Shown: positions 53,640 through 64,000, numbered from the stretch's first letter. The stretch: DNA of 64,000 bases from Candidatus Nanoarchaeia archaeon (GCA_028279755.1 JANQNB010000011.1:192501-256500); one strand, 5' to 3'. Program-made: numbers and translations. The notes: generated by a model from the sequence alone, not told the origin.

Positions 53640-54263
53640 TCAGCCTTTATAGGCAATGCTTGGAACGCCCAATTGACGCAAGGCGCGCTTGTTCGGCTTG
53701 CCTTGGCGCTCGTGATAGTCGAGCAAAGCTCCTGCATATTGCACATCAAGGCGTCCAGGATCCAGCACGTCCTCGAGACCGACATGCTTGATCACATCCT
53801 TCATATGGCCTTGCTTGATACCCTGAGCTGCTGTCTGGCGCAATTCCTGACGCAACTGGGCCATGTGACGCTCACGGAACTGCTCATTAAAGGTCTCGAA
53901 CTTGAAATCACTCCCCAATTGCTGAATATAATCGCCAAACTGTTTCTTGGTGAAGCCAGCGTACGCCTTCATCAGGCGATCCTTCTTGATCGGATCAAGC
54001 TTCTTGGCATCCTTGTCAGTGTTGAAATAGTCCTGCGCAGCACCAACGTACGAGTCAACAAGCTTACCGAGACCTTTCTGCTGAAACTCTTCCTTATCCA
54101 GAAGCGTATAATCAACTTCACCATTCTTGTCGACGATCGCAGATTCAAACTCATTGAACGCGATGCGATGATGGCGATCTGTTGTGTCGGCAGCCTTCTC
54201 AGCGGCACGATGCAGTTTCTGATGTTCTTCAAGATGCTTTGGCAGCTTGGGCTTCTTTGCCAT
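53640..54263 (-). CDS. Novel paralogue pair, member 2
   Basis: This 207-aa protein is helical and lysine-rich. Residues 15-80 (HRAAEKAADTTDRHHRIAFNEFES, then NGEVDYTLLDKEEFQQKGLGKLVDSYVGAA) correspond to member 1. ATG 54263 is about 28 nt from CATTTATATT (leaderless). The two genes have separate promoters, so they arose by tandem duplication and were kept under independent control. Confidence 0.68.
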   Translation of the reverse strand: MAKKPKLPKHLEEHQKLHRAAEKAADTTDRHHRIAFNEFESAIVDKNGEVDYTLLDKEEFQQKGLGKLVDSYVGAAQDYFNTDKDAKKLDPIKKDRLMKAYAGFTKKQFGDYIQQLGSDFKFETFNEQFRERHMAQLRQELRQTAAQGIKQGHMKDVIKHVGLEDVLDPGRLDVQYAGALLDYHERQGKPNKRALRQLGVPSIAYKG

Positions 54264-54381
54264 AGCTCGCAATCTGTTACCACTCCAATATAAATGTTTG
54301 TATGCTCGATCACCCAGACACGAGGCAAAGCAGAGAAGCTTTTTAAATGATCTCGCTTCCTCCTCGCTTGGTGTTGTTGGG

Positions 54382-55599
54382 GTGAGCGGCAGTCTTGCTG
54401 AATATATCGGTAGTCTGATCAATCAGGGCTATACTGAACCCCAGATTCGGGAGTATCTCCAGAAACAGAACTATCCCATGAGCATGATCGACGCCGCGTT
54501 CCAGGCGCTCAACCAAGGCGGCACGACAGGCCCGGCGCCAACGCAACCAAGCGCGCCGACATCCAATCCAGTCGTCGAGCAGCTCACCAGCTATCTTCGC
54601 ACGTATCTGAGCCAGGGCTACCAGGCAACGCAGCTCGCAGCAACGCTCCAGCAGCAAGGATACAATCAAGCAGACATCGACGCAGCGATAGCAGCAGCGA
54701 CCGGTCAGCAGACCGTGCGGCATGAGGTCCATTTTCCTGGGGCGACGATCATCAAGCTCGCATTCCTCTTCCTGCTTGTCGGCGGCATTGTCTACGGCGT
54801 CATGCTGCTCACCGGCGGCGATGAACCAAGCCCAATTCCGATTCCTGGCGAGATGCGCCTGCTCGACGTCACCATGTCGCTGGAAGAGTATAATGTCAAG
54901 CCTGGCGACAAGGTACGCGCTGAAATCACAGTCACGAACATGGGCGACGCGGCAAAGTTCGACGTGGACCTCCGGTACGAACTCTACGACACAGACGGCA
55001 TCCTGTTATGGAGCGAAGAAGAGACCAAAGCAGTGAGCACGAGCTTTGTCGACACGCAGGCGATCGCGCTCGACGAGGACACGCCGGAAGACACGTACGA
55101 GCTCAAGGTCGTGGCCACGTACGGCGGCGAGGCGCCGGCAACAGCGTCGCGACGCTTCACTGTCACCGAAGAGCCGGAGCCGGGTCCAGAACCCGGACCT
55201 GAACCAGGTCCAGAGCCAGGGCCTGGGCCGATCATTATCATCCCGGGCGAGCAGGACACGACAGTCGACGACGCAGTGGCAGAAGCAGAGCGCGGGAATG
55301 GCGCGCGCGCAGAACAGTTGTGCATGGGTATCACGAACCAGGCAAAGCGGGACAATTGCCTCACCAGAATCGTGATGATCGACAATGACGACACGCATTG
55401 CGACAAGATCACGAGCGCGAGCGAGCGCGACGCGTGCTACATGGCTTTCATCATCGACGGCCGGTACGATCTCTGCGACAAGCTGACCGGGCAGGACAAC
55501 AAGAACCTGTGCGAGAACCTGAAGCATCTCAGCCAATTAGAGATCCCGCCATTGGATGACGACGACGGCAGCATCGACGACTTCGCGACCCCGACCTAG
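54382..55599 (+). CDS. Membrane protein with helical repeats, CARDB-like domain and Cys-rich end
   Basis: This 405-aa protein begins with two copies of a 35-residue helical repeat (YIGSLINQGYTEPQIREYLQKQ and YLRTYLSQGYQATQLAATLQQQGYNQADIDAAI), UBA-like in pattern. Next come a membrane helix (IIKLAFLFLLVGGIVYGVMLL), a beta domain with KPGDKVRAEITVTNMGDAAKF (CARDB-like), a PEPGPEPGPEPG stalk and a Cys-rich helical region with six regularly spaced cysteines. The N-terminal repeats would be cytoplasmic and the rest external. GTG 54382 is the first suitable start after TTTTTAAAT. Confidence 0.72.
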   Translation: MSGSLAEYIGSLINQGYTEPQIREYLQKQNYPMSMIDAAFQALNQGGTTGPAPTQPSAPTSNPVVEQLTSYLRTYLSQGYQATQLAATLQQQGYNQADIDAAIAAATGQQTVRHEVHFPGATIIKLAFLFLLVGGIVYGVMLLTGGDEPSPIPIPGEMRLLDVTMSLEEYNVKPGDKVRAEITVTNMGDAAKFDVDLRYELYDTDGILLWSEEETKAVSTSFVDTQAIALDEDTPEDTYELKVVATYGGEAPATASRRFTVTEEPEPGPEPGPEPGPEPGPGPIIIIPGEQDTTVDDAVAEAERGNGARAEQLCMGITNQAKRDNCLTRIVMIDNDDTHCDKITSASERDACYMAFIIDGRYDLCDKLTGQDNKNLCENLKHLSQLEIPPLDDDDGSIDDFATPT

Positions 55600-55601
55600 C
55601 G

Positions 55602-57800
55602 CTACTCGAAATGCGGCATTGCCTCGTCGATCCAGCGTCGGGAGAAGCTTTCTCCACCATCAAGGCCTTCCAGATCATTCAGGCAGAACGGTGGCGGCGC
55701 GACAAACACCGTGACGACAATCGTGTTGTGATGATAGAGCTCGTTCCTGCCGAGATGCCACAGCTGGGTCGCGTTCGTCAATTGCACACCACCCCATGGC
55801 GCTGGCTGAATCTCGACCGGATCCTCAGGGATCAGGTTGCCTTCGACCTCCATGCAGCCTGCGGGAATGATATGGCCGTGGTCGTCGATGTAATGCGCCC
55901 GTACTTCATAGAGCCCGGGCACGAGCTTCACCATCGTCAGGTTGCTCGTGTTGCTCATCATCGCCATCGCGTTCACAAAACCCTCACCAAGCGTCATCGG
56001 CACCCGGGTCAGGGTCGCGAACACGCTCTCATGCCCTTCAAGCGGTTGCGCCGCGCCAAGGCCGAGCGCGCCAGTCACCGGGTTGCGCGATACCTGGCGT
56101 TTCTCGAACCGGATCTCTCGTTCGACAAACGGCTCGAGCGTGATGTCTGGCAAGCGTTGCGACTGGCCATTCCTGGTCGAGACCCGGAGGTTGAGGGTGT
56201 TATACCCTTCCTTCTCAGCCTTCAGCGTGCCGCCGAGGCATTGCGGCACTTCCTGATCCAGCTCTGCGTACATCCCATAGGTATCCAAGCTGCTATAGCC
56301 AGCACGGCACGATGCATACAAACCGCAGGTGAAGCTGAACTGCACCTCTGACAATGGCTGATTGGTCTGGCCGTCGAAGGTGCGCACCTGGAGGCGCGAT
56401 AATCGCTGGCTCGGATCGCACAGCAGGGTCTCGAGGCTCTCGTTGTGCGCGTAGCCCGGTTCGCCGCTTGGCGTGCCGTTCGTCGCGTTTGTCGACGGTG
56501 GCGGATCAGCGCCTGGGCCGGCCACTTCCCACGCGACGTTGTCATGCGTCCAGGGGATGGTGCCGCGGCCGAGCATCCATTCGACAAGGTTCTTGTTGTC
56601 GCGCAGGTTCGCCTCGAGCGCGAAGAGGAAGCTGATGTCAGTGCCGGCAGTGGCGTTCTGGTGCCGAATCTCGATGATGAACGGCGCGCTGACATCGTAG
56701 AAGAAGTCGTAGTAGTTCTGCTGGCGCGAGGGCACGAGCAGGATTCCGCCGGTTCGTTCAGTGCGTGGCTTGATCAATTGGTCTTCGCTCGGCCGGACAT
56801 TCATGTAGATCGGCAGGTTCGGGTAGAGGATGCTCACCCTGACGTCCTCGGCTGTCCAGAGGCTTTCGTTGAGCAGGTCCAGATATGTCGTGGTGAGGAA
56901 GCCCTGCACATAGGGATCGCTCACGCTCGGTGGTGGCTGCACGCCCTGGGTCCGCATCACCTGCAAGGCCGGGGTCGTGCTGTAGAGGATCTGCCGGAAC
57001 TTCTCCTGCACTGCGAGGAGCGCCCAGATCTTCGGCGAGAAGCTCTCCTCATATCCCCCAAGGGGTGGCAGGTCAGCCTCGATGCCACTGTAGGCAGAGA
57101 TGAGGTAGAGCATCCAGTTCTCGAGATATTGGGTCTCAGCCTGCTTTCGCGTCATCTCCCGCGCAAGATGATGATAGCGCAGGAAGGGGATCTCAACGTC
57201 GCTGATGAACGTGGTGGCGAGCTGGCGGTTGTCGCCCTGCCGCATCTCGACCCGGCGGAGATACACGACCTCGACGCTCTCGTCGAACATCGTCACCTCA
57301 ACGTCTTGTTCAGGGTCAGGCAGGACTTCGATGTTGGTGAACACGCCGAAGTTCAGGCATTCATGCAGGTGCTGCAGGACATATTTGCGGACCTGCTCCT
57401 GCATATGCTCGCGGCTGGGGATGAGCGTGACCAACGGACAGCTCGTGCACTGGTTCGGGCCGTGATAATAGAGGTAATACGGGATGGCGCTTTCCGGGTC
57501 GCCAGGGTGCAATTGGACAAGATCGGACTCTGTCGGCGCGATTGGGTTCAGGGTCAATGCTTCACCCACTTCATCCTGGTCAAGCGGGTCGAGATAGCCG
57601 CCGTGCAAGGCCATGCGTTTCAGCGCGTCCACTGTCGCGTCGTGGAGACAGCTCACCACTTGCGTCTGGACCGGCTGGAAATCCGCTGGCAGGATCTCCA
57701 TCTCCGGCTGTGCTGGCTTTCGCAGCACGAAGAGGAGCGCGACGAGGATGAGGACGAGGATGCCGAGGATGACATACAGCGCGATCTGTCCTCTACGCAT
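55602..57800 (-). CDS. Envelope operon protein 5: anchored extracellular protein
   Basis: This 732-aa protein has an N-terminal anchor, MRRGQIALYVILGILVLILVALL, that resembles a class III (pilin-like) signal with G-Q at the cleavage point. A large Asn-glycosylatable ectodomain follows. The region SFLFALEANLRDNKNLVEW and the C-terminus ending PHFE match the last gene (62743), so the two are paralogues flanking the operon. A short Cys pair (CTSCPLV) occurs near residue 118. ATG 57800 overlaps the preceding gene by 8 nt and follows GGAGGTG. Confidence 0.75.
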   Translation of the reverse strand: MRRGQIALYVILGILVLILVALLFVLRKPAQPEMEILPADFQPVQTQVVSCLHDATVDALKRMALHGGYLDPLDQDEVGEALTLNPIAPTESDLVQLHPGDPESAIPYYLYYHGPNQCTSCPLVTLIPSREHMQEQVRKYVLQHLHECLNFGVFTNIEVLPDPEQDVEVTMFDESVEVVYLRRVEMRQGDNRQLATTFISDVEIPFLRYHHLAREMTRKQAETQYLENWMLYLISAYSGIEADLPPLGGYEESFSPKIWALLAVQEKFRQILYSTTPALQVMRTQGVQPPPSVSDPYVQGFLTTTYLDLLNESLWTAEDVRVSILYPNLPIYMNVRPSEDQLIKPRTERTGGILLVPSRQQNYYDFFYDVSAPFIIEIRHQNATAGTDISFLFALEANLRDNKNLVEWMLGRGTIPWTHDNVAWEVAGPGADPPPSTNATNGTPSGEPGYAHNESLETLLCDPSQRLSRLQVRTFDGQTNQPLSEVQFSFTCGLYASCRAGYSSLDTYGMYAELDQEVPQCLGGTLKAEKEGYNTLNLRVSTRNGQSQRLPDITLEPFVEREIRFEKRQVSRNPVTGALGLGAAQPLEGHESVFATLTRVPMTLGEGFVNAMAMMSNTSNLTMVKLVPGLYEVRAHYIDDHGHIIPAGCMEVEGNLIPEDPVEIQPAPWGGVQLTNATQLWHLGRNELYHHNTIVVTVFVAPPPFCLNDLEGLDGGESFSRRWIDEAMPHFE

Positions 57801-58779
57801 GGCTGCCACCTCCAAGCGAATCGAAAAGGTAACGTCCCCAGGCAAGGAAGACCACGAGCCAGGCAAGGGTCAGAAAGGCGTAGAGGCCCTGGCTCACGAT
57901 GCTGGTGAGGGAGATCAGGCCGATGCCGATGAGCCAGGTGATCGCCATGGCAAGGAGGATGCTGAACAGGTCCCGCAGGAGCGGCCAGAGCGTGCTGGAC
58001 TGGAAGCTCAGCAATAAGAGGGCGAGCAGGCCGGCAAGCACGATGAGCGTGAGCAGGGCGAGCAGCGCATTCCCCACAGGGGCAAGCAAGGAGCTCACCA
58101 AGGTGATGAGCGCGAGGAGTGTGAAGAGGAAAAGTTGCAATAAGGCGAGGCCTGCAAGGTAATGCCACCAAGGCGCTTTGGGAAATTTCTGCATCGCATA
58201 GCAGAGCGGAAGCACGACGCAGACAAGCCCGAGCAGTGAGAGGAACGCGATCGCGACTGGATAGGGATTCTGGATCAGCAGCAAGGGGATCACCAAGACA
58301 AAGGGTGCGAGGAAGAGCAGTGCAGTGACGATTAGGCGACGCCTGGCAATGCGCCACTCCCAACGCCGCTGCTGCAGGTTGTTCCACAACAGGCTCTTGG
58401 CTGCGACGTAGAGCACGAGGAAGACGAGGAGGCAGGCGATCGCGATCAGGACCACCTTGAACACGACCAGGTTGAGGTTCGGACGCAGGCCTTCCAACAG
58501 TGCCAGACGCTGGGGATCCGTCGGGTTGCTCGCTTCGAGCTGGGCGATCGCGCTCAGCACCGGGGCGAATGGGCGCGCGACCATGGTAGCAAACATTGCG
58601 TACACGCCGAACAGCAGCATGCCGAGGAAGCCGAGCGCGACATCGATCCCGACATGCCCGAGGGTGCGCCAGTCCCAGACGCGTCGCCACGCGTGGACAT
58701 AAACCGCGAGCTGTCGCTGCCAGTATGCCCGCAGTGTCTGTTTCCTCACCTTCTTTTTCTTGCTCATGTTCTTGCTCAT
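57793..58779 (-). CDS. Envelope operon protein 4: polytopic membrane protein
   Basis: This 328-aa protein has a Lys-rich cytoplasmic start (MSKNMSKKKKVRKQ) and about eight hydrophobic helices, including LNLVVFKVVLIAIACLLVFLVLYV and WHYLAGLALLQLFLFTLLALITLV. It is not recognised as a known secretion or pilus platform protein. ATGA overlap with the preceding gene and 8-nt overlap with the next indicate tight coupling. It is a candidate membrane platform for the flanking ectodomain proteins. Confidence 0.7.
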   Translation of the reverse strand: MSKNMSKKKKVRKQTLRAYWQRQLAVYVHAWRRVWDWRTLGHVGIDVALGFLGMLLFGVYAMFATMVARPFAPVLSAIAQLEASNPTDPQRLALLEGLRPNLNLVVFKVVLIAIACLLVFLVLYVAAKSLLWNNLQQRRWEWRIARRRLIVTALLFLAPFVLVIPLLLIQNPYPVAIAFLSLLGLVCVVLPLCYAMQKFPKAPWWHYLAGLALLQLFLFTLLALITLVSSLLAPVGNALLALLTLIVLAGLLALLLLSFQSSTLWPLLRDLFSILLAMAITWLIGIGLISLTSIVSQGLYAFLTLAWLVVFLAWGRYLFDSLGGGSHA

Positions 58780-59402
58780 GTGCTGTTCACATCGATGAAT
58801 CCTGACAAGAGGTATTGCCAATCGCCAGTGTGATTTGTCAGTGTGTGCCGCCATCGCAGGCGCACTTGCCGGAGCTCGCCTGTCAAGGGAATGCAGGTAT
58901 ATATGTCAGGATCGCACGGGAGCGGGATCGCGTAATAGCCGTCAGAAGCCCGTGACGAGCTGGCAGTATTACTCACCAGGGTATGGTTGATCCCGGCAGC
59001 GTTGTACAGTATCACTTCGACATCATACGTGCCTTCATACGGCTGCATGTACCAGCCGACCTCATAATACATGCCAGGCGGACCAGTTCCTGAATCGTAC
59101 GGACTCTTTTTCGCGAGCACGGTCACTGTGTCCCGATAGATCGGCGTGTTGAGCGAGACCTCGACGATGTTGTTCGCTGCCGGGTCAGCACCGTAGCTGC
59201 TTGTGAGCCCCTGGGTACACACCTCCACTTCCCACTGCGACACGCCATACCAGGGAAGGCCCAGATCCGATTGGTTCAGTTCTGTCACCCAAGAGAATTG
59301 AGGCTGGGTCAGTGGGCTTGTCAGCGTGACTGCGCCATTCGCTGTGACAAGCGCAGCCAGGCAGATCAGGAGGAGCATGGCAAGGAACGATCTACGAATC
59401 AA
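58776..59402 (-). CDS. Envelope operon protein 3: secreted protein
   Basis: This 208-aa protein has a clear signal peptide (MIRRSFLAMLLLICLAALVTANGA). The small beta-rich domain contains NQSDLGLPWYGVSQWEVEVC and ends in VNST. Several Asn-X-Ser/Thr sequons are present. The start is TTG at 59402, overlapping the previous stop (TTGA), with GGAGGTG 7 nt upstream. No family is recognised. Confidence 0.68.
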   Translation of the reverse strand: MIRRSFLAMLLLICLAALVTANGAVTLTSPLTQPQFSWVTELNQSDLGLPWYGVSQWEVEVCTQGLTSSYGADPAANNIVEVSLNTPIYRDTVTVLAKKSPYDSGTGPPGMYYEVGWYMQPYEGTYDVEVILYNAAGINHTLVSNTASSSRASDGYYAIPLPCDPDIYTCIPLTGELRQVRLRWRHTLTNHTGDWQYLLSGFIDVNST

Positions 59403-62400
59403 AACAAGCCACCTCCATCACCAGTGTCGTCAGGCTCGACCCCGTCGAGATCAGCGCAGAAATCGCTGCCAGTCGGCACAGCAGGGTTGCCTTCCCGCAG
59501 GCTGTCTGCGTATTCCTCAAGCTCGTTGAAATTGAGCGCGACGCCCACGAGACCGCAGACTGTCGCGATCAGGCCGCACATCAATGGATCCCACGCATCA
59601 ACCTCATCGCCAGTGCATGTGCTGCTGCCAGCTGCGCGCGCGTCCGTGTACAATGGCGAGCAGACTTCTTCGTACGCCTTCACGACCAGCCAGCCGATCA
59701 GGGCCTGCAAGGCTGCATACCCGAGCTGAATGAGCAGGTTTTCCATCGCGCCGTGCTCGCGTGCCTGCGCGCTTTCGAGGTAGAGGCAGGATTGCGCAGC
59801 GTACTTCTGTTCGCAATGCGTGATCGGCATGCCAAGAGGTGCGCTTTCGCGGATGCAATCAAGTTCGATGCATTTGAGCATCTTCTCCTTACGCAGATTG
59901 TACAATTGTGCAGGGATGCAGAGCGCGTCGTAGCGCGTCGACCGGTAGGGGTTCACAATCCAGTCATCGCCAGGGATGGCATCGACAAAGGTTTGATAGT
60001 TAAGGAGTTGCTGCCCATACGGGGACATGCCCACTTGCTTTCGCGGCGTCAAGGTGAGCCTGTCAAGACCCAGATTGTATCCGGAGCTTGAACCGTCAAG
60101 CACTTCTGGACTGAAATGATCTCCCAATTGAGACGGTGATTCATACGACACTTCGTAAGGTTGTTGGTCGCCATACCAGTTCGGAATCTCGCTGCCGTGC
60201 ATCGCCCGCATCTCCAAGCCGAAGCTCATCCATTCGCCAGCGTCGTAGAGCTTGCAGGTGTACAAGCCGCAGATCCATTTGATCAGGTAACCGATAGCTG
60301 ACAGACCACCTTCTTTGCTGAAGGCTTTGATGAGGCCGACTGTGCCATCTGCGCCGCCGCCACTCACCCAGCCGACCGGCCAGATGTACGTGTTGACAAA
60401 CTTGTGGAAGCCAGAGAAGAGTTTGTTCCCGAACTCCCACAAGCTCTCGCCGTCGTAGCCCCACGCTTCGAGGATGAGCGCGATCGCCCAGATGATGCCT
60501 TTGACGACCTGGATCACCTGATTGATCTTGCCCAACGCTTCTGCCATGCGGCAGATCTTGCCCAGGCTTTCATCGATGCTCGCCTTGCTCCCGATCTTGC
60601 CTTGCAGGCGGTTGATCTCGTCGACAAGCATGGCGTCCTTATCCAAGATCGCCTGGCCGGGATTGCCGATCTCGTCGCGCGTCAGGGGCAGCGCAACAGA
60701 GAGGTTCTCCTTCTCAGCCTGGGTATAGACGACATTGCCCCGTCGCATCGTGAAGTCGAGCGAGCAGTTCATGTCGACTGTGCCGTTGGGCCAGATGCTG
60801 GTGTAGTGGTAATGCGTCACCAGGACCGGCTTGGAGCTGAACTCGTTCATCAGATAGGTCGGACCCGCTATCTCTGGCGTACTGCACTGGATGCGCCGCA
60901 CCTGGATGACGGTCGCACCGCCAGTGACAGAAAGCGAGAGCGGCAGGACAACACGGAAGGGAACAAGCGAAGCGATCCGCTTGTCCACCAGCGGCAAGGT
61001 GCCAGTCGGCCTGACCGCAGTGATGAAATTCGGCGTGATCTCGGTTTCGGCCTCGCACACTTCCAGATTGCGGATCTCAAGCTCGCGCGTGTTGCCTGCC
61101 TCATCCCTAAGCACGAGGGGCACGTTCCCCTCAGTATAGACGCTCAAGAAGCTATTGATAGCCAGGTTGCAGACAAAGTTGCCGTCGCCAAGCGCTTCGC
61201 ACACGGTCGTGACTGTGTCGCGGTCAGTCACTTCGCTCACATTCGCGGTGAGGTAGAGCCGCGGCGAGTAGGCATCATGAGCGTCGACTGTCACTGTCAG
61301 AGTCTGGCCAGCGACAGGACAGGCTGCGTCCATCGAGGGCTGGCCGATCACTTGCGGCACTTCGTTGTCGATGGTGAACTCCTTCTCGAGGATGCCCACG
61401 ATGCGGTTGCCCAGGTCGTCCATCGAGGTCGGCAATACTTGCAAGGTCTGAACATCGCCGTTCCCGCCGGTCGCGTGCACAGTCGCAAGGCATTCCCACG
61501 CGTCGCCGCCAGTGTTGGTGCAGTTCCGCGCCGCCACTGTGCTGGTCCGGAGCTTGAAGAACAGACCGTTCCCGGCCATGCCGCCGGGCGCGTTGAGGAG
61601 CGCGAGCACGTCGTTCGCACCACGGGTCAGGAAGCAGGTGTCGCACCCATCTGGCCGGCCGAGGTAGGTGATGACTGGTTGCGTATTCTCGATCATCAAG
61701 GTCTTCGCTGCGCTGCCGGTTGCGGTGTTGCCGCTCGTGTCAGTCGCGGTGATGGTGATCATGATCGTCTCTTCCGCAGGGTTGAGCTTCAGGTTGGGGT
61801 ATTCGCACTGGTGCACGCCGCCCTGGTCATTGCAGGTCATAGTGAGATCGGTGTATTGCGAGGCATGGCCCGGGTCGGCAGTGAGCGCGCTTGCGTCCAC
61901 AGTGACGGTGTCGAGCGAGCGTTCCTCGACAGTGAAGCGCAAGGTGACCCTGATGTCGACATCGGTCGTGGTGCTGATGTGCTGGATGTCCTGCCCCGCC
62001 CTGAGCAATTCGAAGCTCACCGGCAGGCTCGGCGCGACAGTGTCAACCTCGCGCGTGATGACCTCGCTCGTGCCGGTATTGCCCAGGCGGTCGGTCGCGA
62101 TCAGGAAGATCTCGGTCTGGCCGCTCAGGCCCGCGGCTTCGCCGGTGATGATGCCGTTCGCCTGGCACTCGCCGCCGAAGTTCTCTGTCGCGACATTGTT
62201 CTGGTTGACGATGAGCTGGAGCGTGTTCAAACCAGAGCAGAGCGGCACGGTCCCGCTCGACACGTCTGCGATGTCATAGGTCGCGCTCAGGCTGCTGCCA
62301 AGCTGTGCCACCTGGATATTGTTGAACTGCGGCGGCAGGCCATCGACAGTGTACATCGCGGTCGTGAGCGGTGGAGAACCGCCTTCCTGTCGCAGGTTGA

Positions 62401-62746
62401 GCGTGTAGGTCCCTGGCGCCTGCCAGGTCTTGGGGAAGACGTAGGTGCAGTGGAAGCCGCCTGTATCTGCTGGCGTGCAGGTCAGGTTGATGCTGGTGCT
62501 CGCGCCGACAAGGCTGACCAGGTTCGAATCAGCGTAGACAGTCACGGTCGTGGTGTCGTTGGCCCGGCGGAACTCGGGGAGCTGGTCCTCGCCATACACT
62601 TCTGCCTGGAACACTGCCTCTGCCCGCATCGAGAGCAGGGGAATCACGCCGAGGCTCATCACCAGGTAGATCATGAAGATCGCGAGTGGTTTCAGCCAGT
62701 GCTCGGGAATCAGTCGTTCCGCATCCATCATGGTTCCTGCATTCAT
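59399..62746 (-). CDS. Envelope operon protein 2: giant Ig-like repeat surface protein
   Basis: This 1115-aa protein has a single N-terminal membrane helix (PLAIFMIYLVMSLGVIPLL) after a short cytoplasmic start. Ectodomain Ig-like beta-sandwich repeats recur with the pattern D-N-x-x-P (VDTVAPSLP, IDNEVPQV, IENTQPVIT) and with disulfide-type Cys. The last 400 residues are a different, helix-containing region with two further hydrophobic stretches (LLIQLGYAALQALIGWLVV; MCGLIATVCGLVGVAL) and end in an acidic tail. It starts with an ATGA overlap. Confidence 0.75.
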   Translation of the reverse strand: MNAGTMMDAERLIPEHWLKPLAIFMIYLVMSLGVIPLLSMRAEAVFQAEVYGEDQLPEFRRANDTTTVTVYADSNLVSLVGASTSINLTCTPADTGGFHCTYVFPKTWQAPGTYTLNLRQEGGSPPLTTAMYTVDGLPPQFNNIQVAQLGSSLSATYDIADVSSGTVPLCSGLNTLQLIVNQNNVATENFGGECQANGIITGEAAGLSGQTEIFLIATDRLGNTGTSEVITREVDTVAPSLPVSFELLRAGQDIQHISTTTDVDIRVTLRFTVEERSLDTVTVDASALTADPGHASQYTDLTMTCNDQGGVHQCEYPNLKLNPAEETIMITITATDTSGNTATGSAAKTLMIENTQPVITYLGRPDGCDTCFLTRGANDVLALLNAPGGMAGNGLFFKLRTSTVAARNCTNTGGDAWECLATVHATGGNGDVQTLQVLPTSMDDLGNRIVGILEKEFTIDNEVPQVIGQPSMDAACPVAGQTLTVTVDAHDAYSPRLYLTANVSEVTDRDTVTTVCEALGDGNFVCNLAINSFLSVYTEGNVPLVLRDEAGNTRELEIRNLEVCEAETEITPNFITAVRPTGTLPLVDKRIASLVPFRVVLPLSLSVTGGATVIQVRRIQCSTPEIAGPTYLMNEFSSKPVLVTHYHYTSIWPNGTVDMNCSLDFTMRRGNVVYTQAEKENLSVALPLTRDEIGNPGQAILDKDAMLVDEINRLQGKIGSKASIDESLGKICRMAEALGKINQVIQVVKGIIWAIALILEAWGYDGESLWEFGNKLFSGFHKFVNTYIWPVGWVSGGGADGTVGLIKAFSKEGGLSAIGYLIKWICGLYTCKLYDAGEWMSFGLEMRAMHGSEIPNWYGDQQPYEVSYESPSQLGDHFSPEVLDGSSSGYNLGLDRLTLTPRKQVGMSPYGQQLLNYQTFVDAIPGDDWIVNPYRSTRYDALCIPAQLYNLRKEKMLKCIELDCIRESAPLGMPITHCEQKYAAQSCLYLESAQAREHGAMENLLIQLGYAALQALIGWLVVKAYEEVCSPLYTDARAAGSSTCTGDEVDAWDPLMCGLIATVCGLVGVALNFNELEEYADSLREGNPAVPTGSDFCADLDGVEPDDTGDGGGLF

Positions 62747-64000
62747 TCAAAGCTTGGCATCTGCATCAAGCGCTTGCTCCGCAAAAAGTCTTCTGGCGTG
62801 TCGTATTCTTCGAGGTCGTGCCAATTCGCGGGCAGTTCCCGTTCGAGGACATAGAGCACGTATTCGTCGAACCGGTAGAGGGTGCTCTCGCTGAGCAGCC
62901 AGGGCTCGCTCGCATTGATCATCGCACCGCCGTTCAGCCAGGTCGTGAAGTTCGTCGCGTTCAGGGTCATCTCCTGCCTGCTGAGGCAGAGCGGGTCAGC
63001 GCAGAAGTCCCTCGTCTCTTCAGGGATCGTGAAGGGCTCGGTATAGAGCAGGAAGGCTTCGATCTCATAACTTCCTGGCGCGAGTTCGGCGTGCACGACT
63101 GGTTCTTGTCCTGAGAGCGTGAGGTTGAGGCTCTGGTTCAGGGCGACAAGCCAGTCTTCGACATCCTGGGCAGTGAGCAAGCCCTCTGCTTGCAGCTGTT
63201 CGAGCTCGCGACGTTTCGCGTCCAAGTCGAAGGTGCTGACATGTTCCTCGACGCTGAATGTAAAGAAGCCGACGAACGGCACGTCCTCGTCATAGGGCGT
63301 CTCCTTGATCCGCTTGAAGTTCAGGATGACCATGTCGCTCGCGTTCAGCATGGCTCGGTGCTCGCGCACCAATGCTTGCGTCAATGTCCGGCCGCTCAAT
63401 TCCTCGACCTGCGCCGGCGTTCTTTTCATCATGGTGAGCGTGACGTTCCGGAGCGGCCAGAGCTCGAGCTGGAAGCTCTTGGTGATGCCCTCCTGGTAAT
63501 TGTCGTACTCGAGGCCGCTGCCCATGTAGCCCTCCTTGCTGTACAAGAGCACGCCGCCGTAGCGGCAGTAGGGCAGGGTCGTGACAAGCTCGCCGTTCTC
63601 GTCGCTCTCGCCGATGAAATATTCCTCGCCGCAGGAATAGCTCACCCTCGCAAAGGGCAAGGGCTCGAGCGTGTACTTGTCCCGGGTCTTGATGAGGAGG
63701 GTGTTCTCCACGCGCTGCAAGGGGCTGGTGAAATCGATCTGTTCGTCGAGGATGAGGAAGTCGTCCGCGCTCGCGCTCCTGTTGAGCGGCTTGTTCCGCC
63801 GGATGTTCGCCTCGAGGGCAAAGCTCCAGTCCAGGCCTTTGCCGTCGAAGGCTTCTGCATCGGTGAGGGTGACGATGACCGGGTAGGCGAGGTCGTATCG
63901 GAAGCGGTAGTCGTTGATGAACACGCCGGCGATCCTGCTCACCAGGCCGCCGGTGTCTGCGCTCCGCGGCTTGAGCAATTCCTGGCCGCCGTTGATGCTC
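62743..64000 (-). CDS. Envelope operon protein 1: paralogue of protein 5 (partial)
   Basis: This is the C-terminal 418 residues of a gene whose start lies beyond the right edge. It shares with the 732-aa protein the segment SFALEANIRRNKPLNR, the carboxypeptidase-regulatory-like beta repeat around FARVSYSCGEEYFIGESDENGELVTTLPYC, and the short C-terminus ending PSFE. Many Asn-X-Thr sites suggest export. Its stop overlaps the next start by 4 nt. Confidence 0.72.
   Translation of the reverse strand, partial: SINGGQELLKPRSADTGGLVSRIAGVFINDYRFRYDLAYPVIVTLTDAEAFDGKGLDWSFALEANIRRNKPLNRSASADDFLILDEQIDFTSPLQRVENTLLIKTRDKYTLEPLPFARVSYSCGEEYFIGESDENGELVTTLPYCRYGGVLLYSKEGYMGSGLEYDNYQEGITKSFQLELWPLRNVTLTMMKRTPAQVEELSGRTLTQALVREHRAMLNASDMVILNFKRIKETPYDEDVPFVGFFTFSVEEHVSTFDLDAKRRELEQLQAEGLLTAQDVEDWLVALNQSLNLTLSGQEPVVHAELAPGSYEIEAFLLYTEPFTIPEETRDFCADPLCLSRQEMTLNATNFTTWLNGGAMINASEPWLLSESTLYRFDEYVLYVLERELPANWHDLEEYDTPEDFLRSKRLMQMPSFE

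Follow-up and report, generated by a model that had tools for sequence, protein, structure and literature searches.

The best-supported statement about the operon described here is that it encodes a surface complex, in which pilin-like anchors are combined with disulfide-braced Ig stalks. On balance, this complex probably serves in cell-surface attachment or in contact between cells. The operon was found at the edge of the window, that is, the whole stretch of 64,000 nt from a Candidatus Nanoarchaeia archaeon that was analyzed (G000:C7:192501-256500), which belongs to a genome of 1.49 Mb in 24 contigs, probably from a member of the Woesearchaeales or of a group close to them.

Organization of the operon and its neighborhood

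The original prediction described an envelope operon of five genes, overlapping by 4 to 8 nt at every junction. All five are present on the minus strand, translation bore out their lengths and features, and the overlaps measure 4, 4, 4, and 8 nt. However, the operon comprises six genes 3' of metG, and the right-hand gene of the five is cut by the window edge. Following the sequence past this edge, as had been proposed, completed the anchor F0a (~768 aa) and revealed one more gene 5' of it, coding for an Ig-type protein of ~1,200 aa that is a paralogue of the 1115-aa protein and is itself preceded by metG. From metG onward, the order is Ig protein (~1,200 aa), anchor F0a (768 aa), Ig protein F1b (1115 aa), small secreted protein F8 (208 aa), eight-helix membrane protein (328 aa), and anchor F0b (732 aa). 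The features in the window are as follows.

54247..55599, plus strand: F5, convergent neighbor, open frame with uncertain start; ~40-aa motif repeats, one transmembrane segment (TM), and an extracellular part
55602..57800, minus strand: F0b, second pilin-like anchor, 732 aa, N-terminus MRRGQIALYVILG; paralogue of F0a
57793-57800, minus strand: junction of the 8-TM protein and F0b, 8 nt overlap, ATG at 57800
57793..58779, minus strand: polytopic membrane protein at the F3 position, 328 aa (P0005), 8 predicted TM; relatives mostly ~6 TM
58776-58779, minus strand: junction of F8 and the 8-TM protein, 4 nt overlap, ATG at 58779
58776..59402, minus strand: F8, 208 aa, signal peptide; relatives at this position confined to its genus (L067) and to one further family (L048, L049)
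59399-59402, minus strand: junction of F1b and F8, 4 nt overlap
59399..62746, minus strand: F1b, secreted, 1115 aa; ~six predicted Ig-like domains (45-690), then a helical part and a conserved Cys-rich C-terminal module; conserved disulfide-type Cys pairs
62743-62746, minus strand: junction of F0a and F1b, 4 nt overlap
62743..64000, minus strand: F0a, pilin-like membrane anchor, ~768 aa, N-terminus MRRGQIALYVV; cut at the window edge and continuing to ~65049 (L003:9243-11549)

In the short gap between metG and the first operon gene, a TATA-like sequence, ctttataaag, was recognized by eye only, which would be consistent with a separate promoter for the operon. At the opposite side, the 3' end of the operon lies 2 nt from the convergent gene F5.

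Searches of relatives gave the recurrent families F0 (anchors), F1 (Ig stalks), F3 (polytopic membrane proteins), and F7 and F8 (secreted proteins); F4 is a second Ig family, which in many relatives is paired with a shorter second anchor. The typical layout among relatives is metG - F0 - F1 - F7 - F3 - F0 - F4 (L055 and L056, and also L157 and L185 over the part of the contig examined), and the layout of the window, metG - F1 - F0 - F1 - F8 - F3 - F0, also occurs in L048 and L049. The gene-neighborhood check suggested with the original prediction showed that, in 30 of 42 cases, F0 has F1 or F4 as its same-strand neighbor, with 4 nt as the commonest overlap. Contigs fetched via metG alone provide a less biased check of this neighborhood, and F0 and/or F1 follow metG in the same orientation in all six that are named Woesearchaeota or Nanoarchaeota; F0/F1 were found in none of three Micrarchaeota contigs fetched in the same way, and it is on these three contigs that absence outside the phylum rests. 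The genes are not scattered in relatives, and because their arrangement recurs across the order and, in reduced form, across the phylum, it is not due to chance; the genes form a real operon.

The metG gene lies at L003:15174-17291 (about 68674-70791 in window coordinates), and roughly half of the loci examined have metG ahead of the cluster. The metG found there is of two sequence types, one with YANGPIHIGHL (here and in L212) and the other with YVNNVPHLGN (in other loci), which suggests replacement in place.

As for the smaller components, the 208-aa protein has the expected signal peptide, and the membrane protein has the eight hydrophobic segments ascribed to it. Because P0005 shares only 11-19% identity with F3 relatives, its assignment to F3 was made mainly by position, topology, and a C-terminal 'W.R.Y' that they have in common. 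In many relatives, F5 adjoins the cluster or lies close by; it is associated with the cluster, outside the operon. Its cytosolic repeats of ~40 aa follow the pattern 'QGY..I..L..QGY....ID.AI', and F5 weakly matched a putative S-layer protein of NCBIfam (E=0.0079).

The anchors carry a prepilin-peptidase site without Glu at +5

The proteins encoded by the two outer genes of the five are paralogous anchored ectodomain proteins, as had been proposed (F0a versus F0b, 28% identity, E=3.3e-31), and F0b is 49% identical to the protein at the same place in a relative of the same genus. A pilin-like G-Q site had been ascribed to one anchor, but both F0a and F0b carry K/R-K/R-G-Q. Within the family, whose members measure ~620-800 aa, the pattern [KR][KR][GAS]Q, with a hydrophobic stretch behind it, was found in 57 of 57 members with a locatable N-terminus: the Gln is invariant, position -1 is only G, A, or S, the two positions preceding it are mostly K/R, and the Gln is followed mostly by I/V and T/S/A. 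Position +5 is Phe or Tyr in 56 of these members and Ile in one, and none of the 57 has the pilin Glu there. Glu at +5 of the mature protein is a feature of major, filament-forming pilins, and it is present in the small pilins of this genome (QASME, QTALE, and QAAME, of the QASMEYL type). Judged by its sequence, the F0 motif is a prepilin-peptidase site, but without the Glu+5 of filament-forming pilins.

The AlphaFold2 model of F0a (mean pLDDT 88.9, pTM 0.58, 51 sequences) predicts a membrane helix at residues 2-26, pLDDT values under 50 at 27-34, a resumption of the helix at 36-42, and a helix at 42-65, beyond which alpha/beta parts follow. By structure comparison of the model, residues 446-533 would form a transthyretin/CnaB-like domain (best Z 11.1, rmsd 1.8 over 80 residues), and SlaB of Sulfolobus is among the matches to this domain (Z 9.1). 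Such domains are common in adhesins and sortase pilins and are found elsewhere too. The whole-chain matches of F0a were not meaningful (TM-scores 0.1-0.2), and the comparison barely probed the parts outside 444-533.

A third F0-type anchor (438 aa) was observed on another contig of the genome (G000:C9, L211:3665-14098), together with secreted proteins of 790 and 1352 aa. This locus also has four GQ pilin-like proteins of 167-363 aa, and in the distant relative L216, F0 is immediately preceded by a comparable set.

The stalks combine Ig-like domains with conserved cysteines

The 1115-aa protein had been called an Ig-repeat protein, and both its length and its predicted fold agree with this. In the F1b model (mean pLDDT 76, 31 sequences), residues 45-690 are predicted as beta domains making up about six Ig-like units, which are followed by long helices; confidence is low for these helices and for the C-terminal half of the model as a whole. 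Sequence comparison reveals that 17-18 of 18 members share the Cys pairs 90/100, 305/314, 409/419, 516/526, and 621/661, and these pairs would suit an oxidized, extracellular protein. Outside the signal region, the most conserved part is 930-995 (C943, C959, C964, C978, and C987), with a mean pairwise identity of 34% versus 21-23% for each Ig domain. The fold matches of F1 range over many Ig-array proteins, with adhesins, receptors, and S-layer proteins among them, and do not discriminate between these.

In line with the description of the operon as one of unknown function, none of its proteins scored above a curated Pfam or NCBIfam cut-off, and sequence searches of Pfam, NCBIfam, and PDB gave nothing above curated cut-offs to name either F0 or F1. 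In particular, Pfam gave no PilY1/PilC domain match in P0002 or P0003 (E<=1) or in the 31 F1 members (E<=0.01). A viral origin was also rejected: the matches in the viral structure library are generic tail/baseplate beta-proteins, and the operon stands beside metG.

F0 and F1 are co-inherited

F0 was detected in 132 of the 145 genomes of the order by a single-sequence search and in 171 of 193 genomes sampled from the phylum by a profile search, and F1 was detected in 92 of the 145 genomes by a single-sequence search. The F1 profile was then run on 40 genomes, 20 of which lack F0 and span ten families; as genomes are related, the resulting counts are not independent events. Full-length F1 was found in none of the 20 F0-lacking genomes, which gave partial Ig-repeat matches only (best E 1.2e-10), and it was present in all 15 genomes of the order with a clear F0 (E<=1.5e-83). 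In four F0-bearing genomes at a greater distance (G184, G210, G255, and G167), the F1 matches include the conserved C-terminal Cys region, for which distant relatives within the class give matches, and G125, with a weak F0 match (1.3e-11), had no F1. Some genomes of the phylum have neither family, and F0 had no match in two single-contig genomes of 600-700 kb from the class (family f105). F1 is the partner family of F0 and is co-inherited with it.

Prepilin peptidase and motors elsewhere in the genome

As originally noted, no ATPase is visible in the operon, and none of its six genes codes for a platform protein. Elsewhere, the genome has one A24 prepilin peptidase (G000:C7:84516-84848), whose similarity to FlaK/PibD lies below the curated cut-off, and Peptidase_A24 was found in 189 of the 193 genomes of the phylum. 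The genome also has at least three TadA/T2SSE-type ATPases, with motors on contigs C1 and C23. Two canonical ATPases each adjoin a TadC-type protein, with class III pilins in the locus.

A further TadA/FlaI-like ATPase of 777 aa (G000:C23:104179-106506; L201:9176-11509) occurs in 185 of the 193 genomes, with ~50-68% identity among the matches listed. In five loci examined, it is followed by a divergent TadC-like membrane protein of ~710-760 aa (here L201:6985-9189), and the two halves of this protein each resemble TadC in profile comparisons (P=5.6e-4 and 1.7e-5). Three 5-TM paralogues of ~190-240 aa were also observed near the ATPase in this nearly universal motor locus. Beside the ATPase, a small coiled-coil protein (L201:12168-12827) contains the motif of F5, a cytosolic helical element of ~40 residues (QGY..I..L..QGY....I..A); a profile comparison of this protein with F5 gave P=4e-5 and 70% probability, and the motif is a possible link between the motor locus and the surface operon.

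No PF00482 hit was obtained in 36 genomes; of these, 20 are listed by name, and each of the 20 carries both F0 and the 777-aa ATPase, with the peptidase present in 19. We dropped the idea of 'motor-less' genomes, as only canonical TadC (PF00482) is missing from them, while the 777-aa ATPase and the TadC-like protein are kept (five loci examined). A PIN-KH housekeeping ATPase had been considered behind the lone weak T2SSE hit of many genomes, but the protein proved to be a TadA/FlaI-like ATPase of 750-790 aa without a PIN match. Nor does the presence of F0 predict a pilus motor, the 777-aa ATPase being nearly universal with or without F0. The earlier suggestion that the operon relies on a pilus motor elsewhere is possible: motors and the prepilin peptidase are present in the genome and in nearly all relatives, but nothing ties them to the operon. 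Since the peptidase and the 777-aa ATPase are nearly universal, their co-occurrence cannot provide this tie, and the anchors are without Glu+5, with a helix broken at 27-35 in the model.

Discussion

According to the architecture described above, F0 would be made as a prepilin-like precursor, which the A24 peptidase of the genome probably cuts between G/A/S and Gln; the hydrophobic helix of the cut protein would stay in the membrane, leaving the large ectodomain outside on a short tether. F1 would be exported by Sec, braced by disulfides, and would project as a stalk of about six Ig domains, while its conserved C-terminal Cys-rich module may dock on F0 and/or the polytopic F3, as suggested by gene pairing only. 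The output of the operon would be two anchor/stalk pairs and one membrane protein, and the divergent Ig stalks, if oriented outward, would touch what lies outside, be it a second cell, some surface, or the coat of the same cell. Ig/TTR-like folds say little on function because they are found in S-layers, enzymes, and receptors; adhesion or cell contact would be the most plausible use in view of the architecture, the presumed lifestyle of DPANN archaea, and analogy. The main rivals of this attachment reading are a pilus tip and a structural coat.

In bacteria, the minor pilins PilX/V/W act with PilY1. The complex of PilY1 with minor pilins serves in priming and at the tip (PMC7541494), and GspK is a large capping tip subunit (PMC7248040); following these precedents, F0 could be large minor pilins and F1 an adhesin carried at the end of a filament extended by one of the genome's TadA/TadC motors, which we regard as rather unlikely. 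Like the PilY1/minor-pilin complex of type IVa pili, the operon encodes prepilin-type proteins (F0) with a large Sec-exported protein (F1) likely carrying the binding function. The prepilin site on F0 would fit a pilus tip, as would the two canonical ATPase/TadC loci with class III pilins, the near-universal 777-aa ATPase followed by its divergent TadC-like protein, and the small GQ proteins beside F0-type genes on contig C9 and in a distant relative (L211 and L216). However, F0 differs from the minor pilins of that complex in its size of ~620-800 aa, in having Phe/Tyr instead of Glu at +5 in 56 of 57 members, and in lacking one long alpha-1 in the model, where the helix stops at 26 and restarts at 36-42. 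F1, unlike PilY1, consists of an Ig array plus a Cys-rich module and has no Pfam match to PilY1/PilC, and neither a motor gene nor other assembly genes lie in the locus. Moreover, F0 is kept in all 20 listed genomes without detectable canonical TadC (PF00482), though all 20 have the 777-aa ATPase.

The peptidase, the anchors, and the 777-aa ATPase plus its TadC-like partner persist in the genomes lacking canonical TadC, and on this basis a phylum-specific cell-contact apparatus may be envisaged, in which prepilin processing would be used chiefly to anchor Ig-stalk complexes, not ordinary pili, with the ATPase and its partner as a dedicated assembly machine; we consider this unlikely.

It is quite unlikely that F1 and F4 are S-layer or coat glycoproteins, with F0 as the pillars that hold them on the membrane. 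Near-universality and co-inheritance of F0 and F1 fit a structural role, SlaB matches the TTR-like domain (Z 9.1), and the F1 Ig arrays match S-layer proteins among many others; Makarova et al. predict arCOG02487, which has an Ig-like domain, to be an S-layer protein (PMC5898192) and list a DPANN-specific secreted family beside it (PMC6393860). Nevertheless, two F0, two F1, and a membrane protein per operon are more suggestive of a complex than of a single abundant coat protein, and the phylum includes genomes without both families. A secretion or membrane-remodeling complex, as proposed for Ig-like/S-layer-like archaeal clusters with arCOG01314, is highly improbable: the operon resembles it in general terms (Ig-like secreted proteins with a polytopic membrane protein), and a DPANN family is reported to neighbor arCOG02487, a component of that proposal (PMC5898192, PMC6393860), but its MoxR-type AAA+ ATPase and vWA protein have no Pfam match among the six operon proteins.

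The attachment or cell-contact complex that we favor can be compared with other known systems. Gram-positive sortase and ancillary pilins are alike in having a CnaB/TTR-like domain in an adhesive surface protein, whereas anchoring here would be by an N-terminal helix with no sortase signal; this domain is widespread and is not evidence of kinship. The bindosome and other archaeal class III signal-peptide non-major-pilins presumably share a large ectodomain behind a prepilin-type signal and an A24 peptidase in the genome, and presumably differ in that no substrate-binding-protein domain was found here and the partners are Ig stalks.

Makarova and colleagues (2015, 2019), in the passages available, describe DPANN islands of divergent pilins and a DPANN-specific secreted family, cls.004306 (NEQ255), beside arCOG02487, a predicted Ig-like S-layer protein (PMC6393860, PMC5898192). 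This pairing of a DPANN secreted family with a predicted Ig-like S-layer-type protein is like that of F0 and F1, which may be the same families; unlike for F0/F1 here, those passages give no operon, cleavage site, or co-inheritance. Jarett et al. discussed Nanoarchaeota surface proteins and a FlaJ/TadC homologue as host-contact candidates (PMC6142677). The open-access literature that we searched contained no description of the operon, the cleavage motif, or the co-inheritance. The partners may have been glimpsed before but, in the open literature searched, were not described as a system.

These findings bear on how host-dependent DPANN archaea recognize and hold other cells, for which no surface apparatus has been named in most lineages. 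F0 and F1 constitute a two-family system, which is found in most genomes of a large phylum with hardly any cultivated members and is lost or retained as a pair. The system yields a precise prediction, namely, that the A24 peptidase would cleave between G/A/S and Q, which could be checked in a laboratory host without cultivating the organism.
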